Below are positions 8,092 to 26,376 of a DNA stretch of 30,527 nt, piece by piece. Source of the stretch: a virus. The stretch lies in IMG/VR virus record IMGVR_UViG_3300042864_000286, positions 1 to 30,527 of that record; one strand, given 5' to 3'. How positions within the stretch are numbered: position 1 is the stretch's first letter; each line of letters opens with the position of its first letter. The notes beneath the pieces are model-generated. The model did no database searches. It saw nothing but the letters and a program-made list of their open reading frames with translations, and was not told the DNA's origin. Both the position numbers and the translations under genes were made by a program.

Positions 8092-8109
8092 ATTTGTCCC
8101 TGTTATAAG

Positions 8110-8116
8110 ATAAATA
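8110..8116 (+). promoter_or_regulatory. Late-promoter-like motif ATAAATA
   Basis: GATAAATACTA, 8 nt before the ATG at 8124. Predicted transcription start falls within about 0-2 nt of the start codon, giving an essentially leaderless late message. Confidence 0.65.
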
Positions 8117-8123
8117 CTACATC

Positions 8124-8372
8124 ATGAAAAAGAACACTCGTAGTTTGCTCGAAGAACTTGAATTAATCTCTGAAAATAGAGATACGCATCATATCATTGA
8201 GAATCGCGCAAATAACGTTATAGCAAGTGCCATACATTTGTTAGAGGTGATTTCTAGAAATTACACTCCAGAACAAACTGCGATACTTGAACGCAAGTTG
8301 TTGATTGCAATTAAGAATCGTGATGGTGATAAGTTTACTAAGAGTTTGAAACGATCAAAGGGTCAAGAATGA
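8124..8372 (+). CDS. Small helical protein of unknown function (82 aa)
   Basis: 82 aa, charged and predicted mostly helical (RSLLEELELISENRD at the N-terminus, NNVIASAIHLLEVI in the middle, basic SLKRSKG at the end). No recognised family and no membrane segment. The start follows the ATAAATA motif by 8 nt with no Shine-Dalgarno sequence. The stop overlaps the next ATG (ATGA), and the next gene encodes a probable structural protein, so this is likely a late-expressed virion or assembly factor. It has the look of a gene conserved among aquatic T4-like phages, but I cannot verify that here. Confidence 0.8.
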   Translation: MKKNTRSLLEELELISENRDTHHIIENRANNVIASAIHLLEVISRNYTPEQTAILERKLLIAIKNRDGDKFTKSLKRSKGQE

Positions 8373-9936: not shown

Positions 9937-10403
9937 CCAAATCATCAAAAGCGTTTCGTGATCTAAGCAGTGTAATTGAAAACACTCTTGAAAAGTTAAT
10001 GGACACGGTCATTGTAAAAATCAATGAACAATATGTAGTTTTTAATAAATATAGTATTACACGTACAGATTCAGAAGTGCATGTTTTTCGTCGTCGAGAT
10101 TATTCTACCATTGATTTTGCAAAAAGCAAACATGCAATGATATGGATAATGTTAGATCATAGCAATAGATTCTATGAACGTGATAGAATAAAAGCATTGG
10201 ATAGTATGTTGTCTAGTGTGGGTGTGGATAAAAAAATTCACGAGAACTTAAAGGAAAAAAACAGAAAAGATATTGAACTTTTTTTGCTTTATAGAACTAA
10301 ACTAGACGGTGATATACGTAAAGAAAAACGAATAATTTCTGAAATTGATAAATACTATAAAATGGCAAACACTATTAGTCATACACAAGGAAATAAAAAA
10401 TGA
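9933..10403 (+). CDS. Protein of unknown function (156 aa)
   Basis: 156 aa. The N-terminal half is beta-rich (VIVKINEQYVVFNKYSI, VHVFRRRDY). The C-terminal half is a long charged helix with coiled-coil character (about 95-150, many Lys/Glu/Asp). No enzyme motif, signal peptide or membrane segment. Coupled by ATGA overlaps to the genes on both sides (9481-9936 and 10400-11110). Being between an unknown and a probable structural gene, it may be a virion or assembly factor, but nothing in the sequence proves it. Confidence 0.8.
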   Translation: MTKSSKAFRDLSSVIENTLEKLMDTVIVKINEQYVVFNKYSITRTDSEVHVFRRRDYSTIDFAKSKHAMIWIMLDHSNRFYERDRIKALDSMLSSVGVDKKIHENLKEKNRKDIELFLLYRTKLDGDIRKEKRIISEIDKYYKMANTISHTQGNKK

Positions 10404-11111: not shown

Positions 11112-11394
11112 GTGAGACTTTACGAATTCGCAGGCGATGATAGTATGCGTGTAAAACTGACTGGCATTATCAGTCAGATACATGCAAAGTCACGAGATCA
11201 GGGTTTCAAAAAGCCCTTCTCGCTGACAGCCCTGCTCAACAGCACCCTTAAAAAACTTGATATCAAACATCAAGGGTAATAAAGTTGTATTCAAGGGTGA
11301 CAGCGATACCAGTGACTCTGAATTGGAAGAGCCTGGTGCAGATACCAAAGTTCTTGACAAAATGGCTAAACGAGCAGCCGACAAGCGTGACTAA
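11112..11394 (+). pseudogene. Frameshifted or internally deleted small phage gene
   Basis: The reading frame opening at GTG 11112 (VRLYEFAGDDSMRVKLTG, directly after the previous stop) runs to SLTALLN and then ends at 11279. A second frame, shifted by +1, is open from 11227 to the stop at 11394. It gives PLKNLISNIKGNKVVFKGD and a charged tail ending AKRAADKRD. Both parts look like real coding sequence and, from memory of related marine phage proteins, belong to one polypeptide in which roughly 25-40 residues separate the LLN-type and PLKNLI-type segments. The simplest reading is an out-of-frame internal deletion around 11240. A +1 frameshift or an assembly error is also possible. Alternatively the 55-codon first frame is used alone. 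Confidence 0.5.
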
Positions 11395-11409
11395 TCTATC
11401 CATTTTCTA

Positions 11410-11438
11410 TTGACAACAATATAAAAGTGTTGTATAAT
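11410..11438 (+). promoter_or_regulatory. Consensus sigma70 promoter, leaderless
   Basis: TTGACA (11410-11415), 17-bp spacer, TATAAT (11433-11438): a perfect match to the bacterial housekeeping consensus. A 6-bp inverted repeat ACAACA/TGTTGT (11413-11418 and 11428-11433) spans the spacer. The ATG at 11445 lies 7 nt after the -10 box, at the expected transcription start. Confidence 0.88.
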
Positions 11439-11444
11439 AGCTAC

Positions 11445-12173
11445 ATGACTTCACTATATACTCCAAAATTTAACTATAAGCCATTGCTACGTGAGAACGT
11501 CAATGGCAAACGTCAATACAATACTCCTGATCAACAACGAGTCCCATCAGTAACCACGATTCTTTCAGCCACAGAACCACAAGAAAAAAAAGATTCGCTT
11601 AATCAATGGAGAAAACGAGTTGGAGTTGAAAAGGCTCAGGCTATTACAACTGAGGCTGCCAATCGTGGGACCAGAATGCATACCTATCTTGAAACCTATG
11701 TTAAAGAGGGCGTAATCAATGAACGTCCTACTAATCCATATAGTTGGGCTAGTCATGCAATGGCTAAAGTTGTTATCGAACAGGGTCTACAAAAGGTAAA
11801 TGAGTTCTGGGGTGTTGAAGTTCCGCTTTATTTCCCATCAATCTATGCAGGCACCACTGACTGCTGTGGTATTCATAGTGGCACAGAATCTATTCTTGAC
11901 TTCAAACAAACTAACAAGCCTAAGAAAGAAGAATGGATCGATGACTATAAGATTCAACTTGCTGCCTATGCTGCCGCACACAATGAAGTTCATGGCACTA
12001 ACATTCGCAAGGGTGTTGTGTTGATGTGTGTCAAGCCCGTACAAGATGAAAAGACATTCGAGATCATCACTCCGCCCGAATATCAAGAGTTCATCATCGA
12101 AGACGCGGACTTTGATTACTGGACTAATCGCTGGTGGGCTCGTGTAGAAGAATACTACGTTAAACACGCATAA
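11445..12173 (+). CDS. RecB/Cas4-like PD-(D/E)xK exonuclease
   Basis: 242 aa. The core fits the PD-(D/E)xK nuclease fold: a helical N-terminus with RGTRMHTYLE (E probably catalytic), AGTTDCCG with D139, the ILDFKQT strand with D152-x-K154, and the QLAAYAAAHN helix with Q171 and Y175 typical of RecB-type nucleases. A DNA repair, recombination or host-DNA degradation role is likely; similar proteins are annotated as exonucleases in T4-like cyanophages. The ATG at 11445 is chosen rather than the upstream TTG at 11427, because the latter lies between the -35 and -10 boxes. Its own consensus promoter and lack of leader separate it from the structural genes on both sides. No cysteine cluster of the Cas4 iron-sulphur type is seen. 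Confidence 0.82.
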   Translation: MTSLYTPKFNYKPLLRENVNGKRQYNTPDQQRVPSVTTILSATEPQEKKDSLNQWRKRVGVEKAQAITTEAANRGTRMHTYLETYVKEGVINERPTNPYSWASHAMAKVVIEQGLQKVNEFWGVEVPLYFPSIYAGTTDCCGIHSGTESILDFKQTNKPKKEEWIDDYKIQLAAYAAAHNEVHGTNIRKGVVLMCVKPVQDEKTFEIITPPEYQEFIIEDADFDYWTNRWWARVEEYYVKHA

Positions 12174-12191
12174 GCATTTACTTCTAGTATG

Positions 12192-12198
12192 ATAAATA
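12192..12198 (+). promoter_or_regulatory. Late-promoter-like motif ATAAATA
   Basis: GATAAATAATG before the fibre gene at 12220. Predicted transcription start is about 12204, within the left arm of the hairpin at 12196-12221. Confidence 0.6.
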
Positions 12199-12221
12199 AT
12201 GATATAGGAATATATCATTAT
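12196..12221 (+). promoter_or_regulatory. Start-codon-occluding hairpin with Shine-Dalgarno in the loop
   Basis: Perfect 11-bp inverted repeat ATAATGATATA (12196-12206) and TATATCATTAT (12211-12221) with loop GGAA. The Shine-Dalgarno AGGAA (12206-12210) is in the loop, and the right arm includes the first two bases of the ATG at 12220. Confidence 0.6.
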
Positions 12222-13035
12222 GGCTATCGTACAAATATCAAAAATCCAAGTTAGAAGCGGTAATCTCGCTGACTTGCCACAACTGGCAGTCGGCGAATTC
12301 GGCTGGGCGGTTGATGAAAAACGACTATTCATTGGTAATGATCCCAACACAATTGGCGCTTTTCCAGACAATACTGAAATAGGAACAGGCGGATCATCTG
12401 CCAGAGCTGCTGGAAACACAGGGCAAATTCAGTTTAACACCGACGGTGAATTTGATGCAAGTGCAAATCTAACGTGGGACAATCCAAACGCTATCTTCAC
12501 GGTCAATGGTACAACTAATTTAAACGGCAACGTAAGCATTAACGGTAACGTTGATGTCAACGGAAATATCGTATACATTGACATTGAAAGATTGTCTGTT
12601 CAGGACCCAATCATAGAAGTTGGTAACGGCCCAAACAATACACCACTCACGGCAAACAATGGTTTTGATCGTGGATTACTGCTACACAACTATACTACAC
12701 AACCAGTTGACGCATTCATGGGCTGGGATACTGCGAATGGTCAGTTTGAGTTTGCTAGTAATGTTAACATTTTTAATGATGTGGTCACAGTCAATGATTA
12801 TGGAAACGTAAAAGTAGACACCCTACTCGGCAACGTAGATGGAGTTAATGCTAATCTGTCAGGAAATGTACGAGGGTTTGGTATGATTGCCATGAACGGC
12901 ATATTCTTAAACACCAAAATTATAGCAGCTCCTTACGAGGTACCCACTGGTTATAACGCCATGAGTACTGGACCAATTGAAGTAATTCCAGGCGGTAGCA
13001 TAACGGTAACTGACGGTCGTTGGGTTGTGCTGTAA
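12220..13035 (+). CDS. Tail fibre/tropism-type structural protein (271 aa)
   Basis: 271 aa. Residues 6-42 (ISKIQVRSGNLADLP then LAVGEFGWAVDEKRLFIGND) match the short N-terminal module found at the start of many phage fibre and tropism-determinant proteins. A module IQFNTDGEFDASANLTWD (about 70-90) follows, then repeating NGNV/NINGN beta-helix-like turns (about 95-115). A central domain starting QDPIIEVGNG is common to T4-like phage fibres. The C-terminus ends SITVTDGRWVVL. No catalytic motif. Late motif and AGGAA Shine-Dalgarno upstream. The module at about 66-95 recurs twice in the giant protein that follows, suggesting module exchange. Probably a host-contact fibre or its attachment part. 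Confidence 0.75.
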   Translation: MAIVQISKIQVRSGNLADLPQLAVGEFGWAVDEKRLFIGNDPNTIGAFPDNTEIGTGGSSARAAGNTGQIQFNTDGEFDASANLTWDNPNAIFTVNGTTNLNGNVSINGNVDVNGNIVYIDIERLSVQDPIIEVGNGPNNTPLTANNGFDRGLLLHNYTTQPVDAFMGWDTANGQFEFASNVNIFNDVVTVNDYGNVKVDTLLGNVDGVNANLSGNVRGFGMIAMNGIFLNTKIIAAPYEVPTGYNAMSTGPIEVIPGGSITVTDGRWVVL

Positions 13036-13065
13036 TGACGAGACAATCGTTTTTTAAAAAATACG

Positions 13066-13072
13066 CTAAATA
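13066..13072 (+). promoter_or_regulatory. Late-promoter-like motif CTAAATA
   Basis: GCTAAATACAT, 30 nt before the giant fibre ATG at 13103, with Shine-Dalgarno AAGGA at 13090-13094. A T6A6 palindrome lies just upstream (13050-13061). Confidence 0.55.
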
Positions 13073-13102
13073 CATGAATAGAACTAATCAAGGATCACTA
13101 TT

Positions 13103-16100
13103 ATGACAACTACAGTTGACGGCATTATTGGAATTGTTACCACTGGCAACGTTACGGCAAACAATTTTTTTGGTAACATTGATGGAAACAGTATCTCTGG
13201 CGACATCAACACCAGCGGCAATATTACGACTCCAGCCAATATATCAGGCTTTAATGTGGCTGCCGCCAATCAAGTTTATGTCGGCCCGCTGCAACTAAGA
13301 GCAATTAACCCAACTACATTTGGTGTATTTTTAGCTGATGGCGTAACTCAGGCTAACATTGATGTTGGAAACGTTGATGCATCGCAAATCACGCAAGGTA
13401 CCTCTGTCATCGCATTTGATGCTGTTAATGGAAACGCATTTGTGACTATCGCCGGTTCTAATGTTCTATTTGTTGAATCTACCGGTCTCGAAGTAATCGG
13501 CAATATTAATACTACTGGCAATCAAATATATAGTCTTGGTAACTCATCTAATCAATGGAAAGATTTGTGGATCAGTGACATATACATGGAGAATATTCCA
13601 CTAACAATGGTGGGTGTAGGACTTAGCAGTAATTTACAAGTCAACGGATCAAACGTACTTGTTGAATATGCCAATGGAAATACCACGCTGAGTAACATTA
13701 TTGTAGGCGGAAATGCTACCATCGCAGGAAGACTTGTTACTACTGGAAATATAACAGGCGGTAACTTAGATACGACTGGTCAAATTGTTTCATCTGGTAA
13801 CATTATAGGAGGTAACTTAAACACTCCCGGAATAGTTTTTGCAGTTGGAAACGTAAACGGTGGAAATCTAAATACTTCTGGCGAAGTGTTTGCAACTGGA
13901 AACGTAAGTGGCGGAAATATTGTTACAGCAGGTCGAGTAAGTGCAACTGGAAACGTAAGTGGCGGAAATATAGTAACTGGCGGTGAAGTTGTTGCAGTTG
14001 GAAACGTAAGTGGCGGAAATCTAAATACTGCCGGAGAATTAAATGCAACTGGAAACGTAAGTGGCGGAAATCTAAATACTGCTGGAGAATTAAATGCAAT
14101 AGGAAATATTGTAACTTCTTCTCAAATTATTGCTGGTGGAAATATCACTACTGTTGGAAACATAAGCGGAACAGGAAACGTAAGTGGTGGAAATATTAAC
14201 ACTTCCGGACTAGTTTTTGCAGTTGGAAACGTAACTGGCGGAAACATTACTACTGCCGGTGAAGTAACTGCCGGAGAAGTATTTGCTACTGGTAACATCA
14301 CCGGTGGAAATATCGATACTGCCGGAGAAGTATTTGCTACTGGTAACATCACCGGTGGAAATATATTCACCGCTGGTAACGCTGAAGTAGGTGGTATCTT
14401 AACAGATAACTACTACTACGCTAACGGCACTCCAGTTGACTTTGAGCAGCCTGCAGGCAGCAACACACAAGTTCAGTATAATAACGATGGCGATTTTGGA
14501 GCAAGTGCAGCATTCTCATTTGATGAAGTTGCAAATGTACTAACAATTGGCGGCGATATTGACGCTAACAATGTACAAATTACAAATGACTTGTCTTCAA
14601 ACTCACTAACTGTCACTGCAAATGCTGCAATTGGTAATATTTCAACCGCAATATTCTTAGCAACAAGCGAAGCAAACGTAGACTCGTTAGTAGTAGTAGT
14701 TGACGCTAATATCGGCGGCATCGCAAACATCGCTGGTAATATTGAAGCAGGTTCGAACATCATTCTAGCAGGTAACTTAGACATTACCGGAAATATCTCT
14801 CAAGTTACGGCACAAACTGCTCGTATCTTTGGTGATGCTACTACTGGTATTCAAGCACTACGAGCTGGTGTTGTAACAGGCTTTGCTAACTTAGCAACCT
14901 CAGTTATTCAAGCATCGACAAACAACAACGACTATTCACAGGTCAATCAACAGAACGTCAACGGTGGCAACGTAGCCAGTGCTGACTATGTTATTACTGC
15001 CGATGACGGCGATGATACAAACTACTATCTAGACTTGGGTCTTGCTGGTAGTGGATGGGACGGCACACAAACAAACTCATTGGGTGATGCTGTATTCCCA
15101 CGTGACGGATATTTATATGTTAATCAGGGTAATCTGGTACTCGGAACTGATAGTGCAACAAAGACTGTCAAGATTATCAGTGGCGCACCAGATAGTACTG
15201 GACTTGTCGCAACATTCAATGCGCCAGGAACTTCCAGTACAACCACTGGAACAGGAGCATTGGTTCTTTCTGGTGGATTAGGCGTATCAGGAAACATCAA
15301 CAGTGCTAATTTAACAACTGGTAATGTAACAGCAGGTAACGCAACTGTAACCGGTACTGTTGCAGCAGGTAATCTCAGCACAGGCGGATCACTTGCAGTT
15401 ACCGGAAACATCTCGGGTGGTAACTTAACTACCTCTGGACAAGTAGTTGCCATTGGAAACGTAGTGTCAAGCGCCAACATTAATGGTGTTGACTTCAACG
15501 CAAGTAACTCAATCATTGCAACAGCAAACATCACAAGTGGTAATCTTATCACAACTGGAGTTGTACTTGCAACAGGCAACATTAGTGGTGCAAACATCTC
15601 AGCATCTGGACAAGTCATTGCAACAGGTAATCTTGTAAGCAGTGCTAACATCAATGGCGTAAACTTAAATCTATCAGGTCTTGCGGCTATTGTTGGTAAC
15701 GTTGCTGCTGGCAACGTCACTACTGCAGGCGAAGTTGTTGCAACTGGTAATGTATCGGGTGGAAACGTAAATACTGCTGGTCAAGTTGTAGCAACTGGCA
15801 ACTTAGTATCAAGTGCTAACATCAATGGTGTTGACTTCAATGCAAGTGGAGTGATCATTGCTACAGGTAATGTTACTGGCGGAAATATCACTACTGCTGG
15901 ACAAGTAGTTGCTACAGGAAACATTGTATCAAGTGCTAACATCGATGGAGTAAACTTCAACGCAAGTGGTAACGCAGTTATCACAGGTAACGTATCAGCA
16001 AGCGGTTCAGCAACTATCACTGGTAATATTGCTGGTGGAAATCTAAACACAGCAGGTCAAGTAATCGCTGTTGGTAATCTGGTATCAAGTGCTAACGTTA

Positions 16101-20983: not shown

Positions 20984-21670
20984 ATGGCACAATTCCCAAG
21001 AGTTAATGGTGACTTACTACCAGTTCTAAACGATGACACAGGTCAATACGTAAACAGCGGCCCAAATGCAGTTCAAGCAGGTGCTACAGTTCAGCCACAA
21101 GGCCCAGCACTAGCATTCTTCACCGTTACTGGTGTTGGCGCTTTGACAGGCACACAAGCTTCGTACACTATCCGTGCAACTGAGCAGTTGGCTACAATTC
21201 ACATTTATCAGTTCAACAACGCAGCTAACGATTCGCTAGCAATGGCTATTTACCCAATCGACGCATGGAACATTGTTGATCTACAAGCTAACGTTCGTGC
21301 AGTTCTAACAGCAGCTGGTCAGCCAAACGCAGTTACAGTTACTGGCGGTGCTACGTTCTCAGAAATCACATACCCACCAACAGGCCCAATCGCTCCAGCA
21401 GCTCCAGTTATTGGAACAGCTATCGCTACAGCCGGTGCAGGTACAGCTACAGTCAACTTCACACCTCAGTACGATGGTGGCTCAGCTATCACTGGTTTCA
21501 ACGGTGTTTCAGTTCCTGGTGGCATCACAGCTACAGCACTACCTGGCGCAACATCAATGGCTTTCACTGGTCTTACAACTGGTACAGACTACGTGTTCGC
21601 TGTTACAGCAACAAACGCTATCGGAACATCAGTTCCTTCAGATCCTTCAAACACAATCACAGCCAACTAA
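20984..21670 (+). CDS. Abundant surface/decoration protein with C-terminal fibronectin-III-like domain
   Basis: 228 aa. The N-terminal about 130 residues are beta-rich without a recognised family. The C-terminal about 90 residues (from PAAPVIGTAIATAGAG through FTPQYDGGSAITGFN, then TGLTTGTDYVFAVTATNAIG to the end) have the full fibronectin type III pattern, an Ig-like fold often displayed on phage heads and tails. It is monocistronic: late motif, hairpin leader, near-ideal AAGGAG Shine-Dalgarno, uniform codon choice (many GCT/ACA/GTT) and a strong terminator right after. These features point to very high late expression, as for a capsid decoration, tail-tube or other major virion protein. Ig-like domains suggest surface display. 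The exact location is unproven. Confidence 0.75.
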   Translation: MAQFPRVNGDLLPVLNDDTGQYVNSGPNAVQAGATVQPQGPALAFFTVTGVGALTGTQASYTIRATEQLATIHIYQFNNAANDSLAMAIYPIDAWNIVDLQANVRAVLTAAGQPNAVTVTGGATFSEITYPPTGPIAPAAPVIGTAIATAGAGTATVNFTPQYDGGSAITGFNGVSVPGGITATALPGATSMAFTGLTTGTDYVFAVTATNAIGTSVPSDPSNTITAN

Positions 21671-21695: not shown

Positions 21696-21722
21696 AAACG
21701 GGAACTTAGGTTCCCGTTTTTT
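21696..21722 (+). terminator. Strong rho-independent terminator
   Basis: Perfect 10-bp stem AAACGGGAAC / GTTCCCGTTT (21696-21705 and 21710-21719) with loop TTAG, followed by a run of Ts to 21722. It ends the fibre/decoration block. Confidence 0.93.
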
Positions 21723-21742
21723 ATTACTATTCTTTAAAAACG

Positions 21743-21756: not shown

Positions 21757-22194
21757 ATGAATCCGTTTCAATTATCCTATATAGATCGTCTAAAAGAATG
21801 GCGTGATCTACGCAATCTAATAAAAACTAAAACATTGGAAGAACAATGCGTAGCGGTAGATCACTGGTGGCAGCAAGCACCCCTACTCACTCATCATTTT
21901 CATTGGAATGACATGACGCACTGGACAGATCCGTGGGAAATGTTATCCGAAAATCTCTATTGTCCCTTGACACGAGCAGTGGGAATGTGTTATACTCTGT
22001 TGATGAATGATATTACTAATATAGAGTTGGTACATGCACATGATCAGCAAGCAGAAGAACATTACTTAGTATTGGTGAATAACGCAAAATATGTGTTGAG
22101 TTACTGGCCGGATACCGTGATAAGTAATAGTCTTAGCAATTTCACAATCAATAGTTCCAAATCATTGGAATCCTTAAAAAATAAAATAAAGTAG
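21757..22194 (+). CDS. Protein of unknown function (145 aa), Trp-rich
   Basis: 145 aa with an unusual density of Trp and His in residues 35-75 (VDHWWQQAPL, HHFHWNDMTHWTDPWEMLSE). Then come CPLTRAVGMCYTLLM and a C-terminal beta region (HYLVLVNNAKYVLSYWPD). Cys and His residues are spaced loosely as in transglutaminase-like folds, but I cannot establish a catalytic triad. No signal peptide. No Shine-Dalgarno; the ATG lies 8 nt after a variant late motif. It comes just before nrdA, 4 nt from its start, and carries a possible internal promoter for nrdA within its coding region. Function unknown. Confidence 0.75.
   Translation: MNPFQLSYIDRLKEWRDLRNLIKTKTLEEQCVAVDHWWQQAPLLTHHFHWNDMTHWTDPWEMLSENLYCPLTRAVGMCYTLLMNDITNIELVHAHDQQAEEHYLVLVNNAKYVLSYWPDTVISNSLSNFTINSSKSLESLKNKIK
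21967..21996 (+). promoter_or_regulatory. Possible internal sigma70-like promoter for nrdA
   Basis: TTGACA (21967-21972), 18-bp spacer, TATACT (21991-21996), inside the 145-aa gene. It would let nrdA be expressed early, before the late motif at 21743 becomes active. Confidence 0.45.
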
Positions 22195-26333: not shown

Positions 26334-26347
26334 TCTATCCAAAATAC

Positions 26348-26376
26348 TTGACTTATAACACTAAGTCAAGTATAAT
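26348..26376 (+). promoter_or_regulatory. Sigma70-like promoter embedded in a perfect inverted repeat
   Basis: TTGACT (26348-26353), 17-bp spacer, TATAAT (26371-26376). An 11-bp perfect inverted repeat TACTTGACTTA / TAAGTCAAGTA (26345-26355 and 26362-26372, loop 6 nt) covers the -35 box and reaches into the -10 box. Predicted start is near 26383, followed by Shine-Dalgarno GAGGTAA. Confidence 0.78.

Follow-up and report, generated by a model that had tools for sequence, protein, structure and literature searches.

Judging from modelled RNA folding, a virion-protein gene of a T4-like phage probably stays untranslated until the late transcript is made, owing to a hairpin that overlies its late promoter. 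The trick is known from T4, and by sequence comparison it recurs here at the same gene in many distant relatives. PHROG matches to a DnaB-like helicase, a primase, NrdA and NrdB mark the DNA that we analysed (the whole stretch, 30.5 kb, hereafter the window) as a fragment of a T4-like phage; a megablast search of the window against phages returned no match.

Hairpin, late promoter and gene neighbourhood

The gene in question (12220-13035, + strand) is predicted to encode a tail or structural protein of 271 aa, the first 40 residues of which are common to jumbo-phage virion proteins (55% with Munch 328). It follows an exonuclease gene at 11427-12173 on the + strand (phrog_298, PD-(D/E)XK, E 4e-52), whose likely start codon is the ATG at 11445 and whose product shares 44% identity with the 121Q exonuclease over 217 residues. 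In Munch, 121Q, RaK2, CBB, XaC1, XbC2, fENko and Kaldavass the order is exonuclease, one small gene, structural gene and nrdA. In PA5oct the structural gene comes directly after the exonuclease and the small gene lies before the reductase, and in the window nrdA is set apart from the structural gene by a 7.5-kb ORF together with smaller genes. Farther downstream in the window, a 10-bp G-C-containing stem at 21696-21725, followed by T-rich sequence and lying 3' of the ORF at 20984-21670, is a likely terminator.

The late promoter motif GATAAATA occupies 12191-12198 on the + strand, with its first base 29 nt upstream of the ATG at 12220. In T4, late RNAs begin 13 bases downstream of the motif's first base. 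With this spacing the late start is predicted at 12204 (+ strand), close to where the left arm of the hairpin meets its loop, which is also where the sequence-only reading had placed it. The prediction fits a peak at 5 nt in the motif-to-ATG spacings of related genomes (described below); the peak supports this start because an ATG at that distance would be at +1 if the RNA starts 13 bases after the motif's first base.

Within the window, TATAAATA-like sites with at most one mismatch are not enriched (47 vs 55 expected). In the 264-kb contig of the nearest relative, whose downstream protein is 84% identical, GATAAATA is enriched (31 sites vs 8 for the reversed motif), and the same contig holds a gp55-like late sigma factor (phrog_12791 E 8e-80, phrog_234 E 5e-24). 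The search for this factor covered eight records, most of them fragments; besides the nearest relative, one (G002) gave a single weak match and six gave none. In related contigs, the genes for tail sheath, tail tube and baseplate are preceded by ATAAATA motifs, and for CBB the genome authors list 35 ATAAATA sites upstream of structural genes as predicted late promoters (PMC5259590, in excerpt).

The hairpin consists of a left arm at 12196-12206, which overlaps the motif, a GGAA loop at 12207-12210 with an SD-like GGA, and a right arm at 12211-12221, the last two bases of which are the A and T of the start codon (all on the + strand). The 11-bp stem that the sequence-only reading had drawn at 12196-12221 around a GGAA tetraloop is present in all 11 of its 11 pairs. 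Its further claim, that the stem ties up the start codon, holds for the A and U of the AUG and fails for G12222, which is unpaired. In the fold of 12171-12250, an outer helix on the + strand adds eight pairs to the stem, joining 12187-12194 to 12225-12232 within codons 2 to 5. The 40-nt fold has an energy of -12.1 kcal/mol (z -4.5) and the 80-nt fold one of -18.2 kcal/mol (z -4.8), and in each case 0/200 dinucleotide shuffles are as stable; in a 140-nt context the hairpin reaches a z of only -2.1, with 7/200 shuffles as stable. An RNA starting at 12204 is without notable structure (z 0.4). An intrinsic terminator was ruled out, as GGCTATCG follows the stem and there is no T run. An exact search of IMG/VR for the window's hairpin gave no matches, and neither did Rfam 15 at gathering score in the window.

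We modelled the cost of opening the ribosome site, taken as the 10 bases before the AUG through the AUG, and obtained 12.1 kcal/mol for the long RNA vs 0.6 for the short RNA. Assumed starts from 12202 to 12208 give modelled costs of 0.3-1.0 kcal/mol; with an assumed start at 12201 a 6-bp stem remains and the modelled cost is 4.5. The SD-like GGA sits open in the loop (opening cost 0.0), about 10 nt from the AUG and downstream of the left arm. From these values the switch is predicted to act chiefly by tying up the start codon and the bases around it. Repression may be moderate, because the loop leaves the SD exposed and the start-codon bases alone open for 3.6 kcal/mol on the long RNA.

Predicted read-through and the proposed switch

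The sequence-only reading had put an early promoter on the upstream nuclease gene and had seen no terminator between the two genes, and both statements agree with what we found. A sigma70-type promoter, TTGACA-17-TATAAT with 12/12 matches, lies at 11410-11438 on the + strand and has its predicted start at 11445, the A of the exonuclease ATG. We looked for a + strand terminator in 11300-13200 and saw none, so none lies between the nuclease and the structural gene on that strand.

Given that no terminator was seen, RNA polymerase from the exonuclease promoter would be expected to run on into the structural gene. On the resulting long RNA, the hairpin at 12187-12232 is computed to form and to tie up the start region, and the structural gene would presumably be silent. 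The late sigma machinery would then use GATAAATA and start RNA near 12204, inside the left arm; by the same computations this late RNA cannot form the hairpin, and a ribosome could use the GGA and the AUG. Because the promoter and the left arm are the same DNA, the choice of promoter would set whether the RNA can be translated. The same arrangement, with other stem sequences, appears to be kept at this gene across a large T4-like group that mixes genes for DNA and nucleotide metabolism with virion genes. We consider a translation switch set by the transcription start site to be the likely function of the element at the structural gene, and the modelled energies support the interpretation given in the sequence-only reading.

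If the hairpin guards against early read-through, it would be expected to accompany an early promoter upstream. Among the relatives, the correlation between the two was not significant (rho 0.18, p 0.18, n=59), nor was it when repeated with better start-codon calls (rho 0.16, p 0.22, n=57). Read-through from more distant promoters could blur these correlations, a possibility that we do not count as evidence. In CBB we classed by hand the upstream genes of 25 of 37 motif/start pairs, leaving out eight outside annotated stretches, two inside genes, one second copy of the motif upstream of the same gene and one with a weak SD. Hairpins were present in 5/10 pairs that follow non-structural or hypothetical genes, in 1/10 that follow structural genes and in 1/5 with a divergent neighbour. 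The first class against the rest (5/10 vs 2/15) gives p 0.06; across the comparisons of hairpin with upstream gene class (Fisher p 0.07 and 0.06, Mann-Whitney p 0.17) there is a trend only. Where a structural gene follows Dda, in CBB and in 121Q, there is no hairpin.

A stem that exists on read-through RNA only could also be a processing or decay site, at which an endonuclease cuts the read-through RNA and parts the exonuclease and structural mRNAs, the translational block being incidental. T4 endonucleases are described as acting on early mRNAs at start regions (PMC3014915, in excerpt). A cutting site needs no particular placement, whereas in the relatives stems of unlike sequence have their right arm over the SD or AUG and their left arm over the late promoter, and we regard processing as an improbable primary role.

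The arrangement in related phages

From two scans we obtained 151 loci, among which the N-terminal motif of the structural protein was used to choose 63 distinct start regions, the window included. Directly upstream, 57 of the 63 have an ORF that matches the exonuclease in size (200-300 codons), and NTAAATA occurs within about 40 nt of the start in all 63. In many of these regions the left arm overlaps the motif and the right arm bears the SD or AUG, with unlike stem sequences; the SD lies in the right arm in many relatives. Retention of the stem in close relatives, which the sequence-only reading had made a test, is seen in the nearest readable relative (L001/L072), where a paired G-C insertion brings the stem to 12 pairs. 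The sequence of an equally close relative (L073) ends inside the element, and some more distant relatives are without the hairpin.

For each start region we took the opening cost on the read-through RNA minus that on the late RNA as the barrier and compared it with spacers shuffled outside the motif and SD, with at most 3 of 60 shuffles as the threshold for passing. Identical start regions were merged; the statistics otherwise ignore kinship. The start-dependent barrier passes in 33 of the 63 regions and fails in 30. By motif, the passes are 19/21 with GATAAATA, 20/34 with any NATAAATA and 13/29 with other motifs. The window itself has a barrier of 12.2 against a shuffled mean of 3.3 (1/60; 0/40 in a second run). 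A cruder first metric, the mean pairing probability of positions -14 to +3 with bases before the start, had given 16/63 regions at 5 or fewer of 100 shuffles and had not singled out the window (24/100). We replaced it with the opening-energy difference after seeing this result, because under the first metric loop bases count against a hairpin; the T4 genes discussed below served as an outside check on the replacement.

Chance is the simplest alternative, since AT-rich DNA with a fixed ATAAATA will often pair with the AT-rich sequence before a start codon. Perfect stems of at least 11 bp with loops of 3-8 nt occur at two places in the window, this hairpin and 26344-26373, and 8/60 whole-window shuffles hold at least one; the stem by itself is therefore unusual and not unique. 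Two of the loci (L074 and L075) fail the shuffle test; by eye their arms pair in a different register, with the motif itself matched by the right arm. What is beyond chance is that the stem coincides with the motif and the start codon and that it recurs in relatives. The shuffles that were beaten in the 33 regions, and in nearly all of those with GATAAATA, keep the motif, the SD and the composition of the spacer. The sequence-only reading had proposed a check for covariation. MAFFT alignments lined the stems up too poorly for pairs to be counted, so we used an arm-swap test, which needs no shuffling: across 71 sequences, own arms pair at -5.4 kcal/mol vs -2.9 for foreign arms (Wilcoxon p 4e-4). 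In the GATAAATA set the values are -9.6 (own) vs -5.3 (foreign); the signal is slight in the remaining sequences (-3.7 vs -2.5, median rank 0.38). Given these results, we consider chance very unlikely.

The arm sequences also bear on whether the inverted repeat acts as DNA, either as an operator or as an extra element of the late promoter. The repeat does cover the promoter, and in T4 the late promoter of I-TevI is overlain by an operator to which I-TevI itself binds (PMC2988022, in excerpt). A sequence-specific operator is unlikely because the arms vary widely among relatives while their pairing persists, and we give a role as DNA very little credence. An equally slim chance attaches to a helix that aids translation, by displaying the SD in the loop, where the GGA is indeed open, or by shortening the SD-AUG distance, as described for T4 25 and 38 (PMC3014915, in excerpt): known helper helices sit between the SD and the AUG, whereas this left arm precedes the SD and the spacing is already normal, on which geometry we rejected a helix of the 25/38 type, many relatives have the SD in the right arm, and the late RNA could not form the helix.

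We return to the start-site-set switch and its distribution. The equivalent gene passes at 10 or fewer of 200 shuffles in 11 of 14 named jumbo-phage records, the failures being BF (15/200), RaK2 (51/200) and PA5oct (162/200); XaC1 passes in one run (9/200) and had 13/200 in another. Near-identity among several of the named records lowers the number of independent cases. The hairpins extend to other genes as well. In 12 related contigs, 24/118 pairs of late motif and start are at 1 or fewer of 40 shuffles vs about 6 expected, and roughly ten of these 24 belong to the gene family studied here. Among SD-bearing pairs, 6/32 in CBB and 6/31 in 121Q are at 1 or fewer of 60, with about 1 expected in each. 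These two phages share hairpins of different sequence at the neck protein, at the gene after ClpS and at the studied gene; a hairpin is also found at the head-tail adaptor in contig G002 and at the structural gene after topoisomerase II in CBB. CBB also has a gene with a T5orf172 domain close to its major head gene (185056-185400, L264); this gene has a late promoter hairpin (11.7 vs 3.1 kcal/mol, 0/60), which recalls the arrangement of I-TevI. Among the papers listed by literature searches we recognised no report of such hairpins in jumbo phages, which does not prove that there is none.

Predicted leaderless genes and the switches of T4

In seven related sequences (G001, G002, G004, G005, G013, G014 and the window), the spacing between ATAAATA motifs and the first ATG of ORFs of at least 80 codons has two peaks: 50/158 lie at 4-6 nt (35 of them at 5), and a further 70 at 17-28 nt. 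For comparison, control motifs (three, AT-rich and unrelated) are at 4-6 nt in 0/39, 4/32 and 5/31 cases, and the true late motif in CBB plus 121Q is at this distance in 1/61. None of the 50 close pairs has an SD at the usual place, which is not independent evidence because the motif itself occupies that place. For sigma70 promoters in the seven sequences, the -10 ends 6 nt before the ATG in 19/112, and at the exonuclease gene of the relatives the distance from -10 to ATG is 6 or 7 nt in 20/29 strong promoters. From these spacings, we predict leaderless early and late mRNAs in related phages. Among the papers listed by literature searches we recognised no report of such leaderless phage genes; absence from the literature is not thereby proven.

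In the window, a late motif lies 4-6 nt before an ATG at 8109-8126, and the 6-nt spacing of sigma70 promoter and ATG is found at 11410-11447, near 1922 and near 21966. At 10347-10402, a late motif precedes a short frame of 13 codons by 7 nt; the stop of this frame and the start of the gene at 10400 overlap (ATGA), and contig G001 has a near-identical short frame near 261387. The other long stem of the window, at 26344-26373, is a 12-bp inverted repeat with a 6-nt loop; it is operator-like, covering a sigma70 promoter with 11/12 matches at its -35 and spacer. A repeat of this length is exceptional among 172 sigma70 promoters, in the spacers of which inverted repeats reach p of 0.05 or less in 14/172 vs about 9 expected.

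It is tempting, and for now quite tentative, to see in both patterns a general rule of this large T4-like lineage, in which translation would be tied to the start of the RNA, for late genes with an SD often through promoter hairpins, and for others through an ATAAATA motif or sigma70 -10 element placed so as to make the AUG the first codon. If so, ATG-first genes without an SD would be used only when an RNA starts there, and genes embedded in this way would be deaf to read-through, which would let early and virion genes be interleaved without terminators. As for the hairpin itself, the results suggest that the trick of a few T4 genes may be an old and widespread way of silencing virion genes in early transcripts, and they offer a possible account of how nucleotide-metabolism genes can sit inside a virion cluster without a terminator. 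The trick would be kept at this gene across environmental and cultured jumbo phages, including Sharanji (recorded host E. coli K-12 MG1655), and the proposal gives gene-by-gene predictions that can be checked by RNA mapping.

Published accounts give the same mechanism for e, soc, 49 and I-TevI of T4, and a 100-fold reduction is cited for e (PMC3014915 and PMC2988022, both in excerpt). Similar structures are described for I-TevII, I-TevIII, segB and Aeh1 mobE, where the ribosome binding site is sequestered on early or middle RNA and freed by a late promoter just upstream (PMC2988022, in excerpt). The sequence-only reading had cited e and soc as examples. Our scoring recovered e, with a barrier of 11.9 vs 3.6 for shuffles (0/40); the soc leader does not stand out (28/200), though the mechanism is described for it (PMC3014915, in excerpt). 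Gene 49, which reads AATAAATAccctta...taagggtttattATG, has a barrier of 13.1 vs 0.8 for shuffles (0/200), and I-TevII one of 13.2 vs 7.9 (8/200).

As in soc, the window element serves a virion gene downstream of early genes (PMC3014915, in excerpt); unlike the soc leader, it stands out in the scoring. It shares with I-TevI, I-TevII, I-TevIII, segB and Aeh1 mobE an adjoining late promoter and a start region that, by computation, would be tied up on read-through RNA (PMC2988022, in excerpt), but those are homing endonucleases in or beside genes, and the window gene belongs to the virion and is conserved, as is the order of the genes around it. The closest likeness is to 49 and e, in which the late motif is in the left arm, the start falls after or in that arm, as it is predicted to do here, and the right arm is on the SD or AUG. 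The window gene differs from these two in being a tail or structural gene beside an exonuclease and in having an AU-rich stem with the SD in the loop, and its repression is a prediction. Three features of the e, 49 and I-TevI switch are found: the motif overlaps the left arm, the helix takes in the first two bases of the AUG, and there is a gp55-type sigma factor in the contig of the nearest relative. An open late RNA without the left arm and read-through of early RNA into the gene are predicted. Since the structural features are those of the T4 kind, we call the element another case of that known kind, and the modelling indicates that it most likely works like T4 49 and e.
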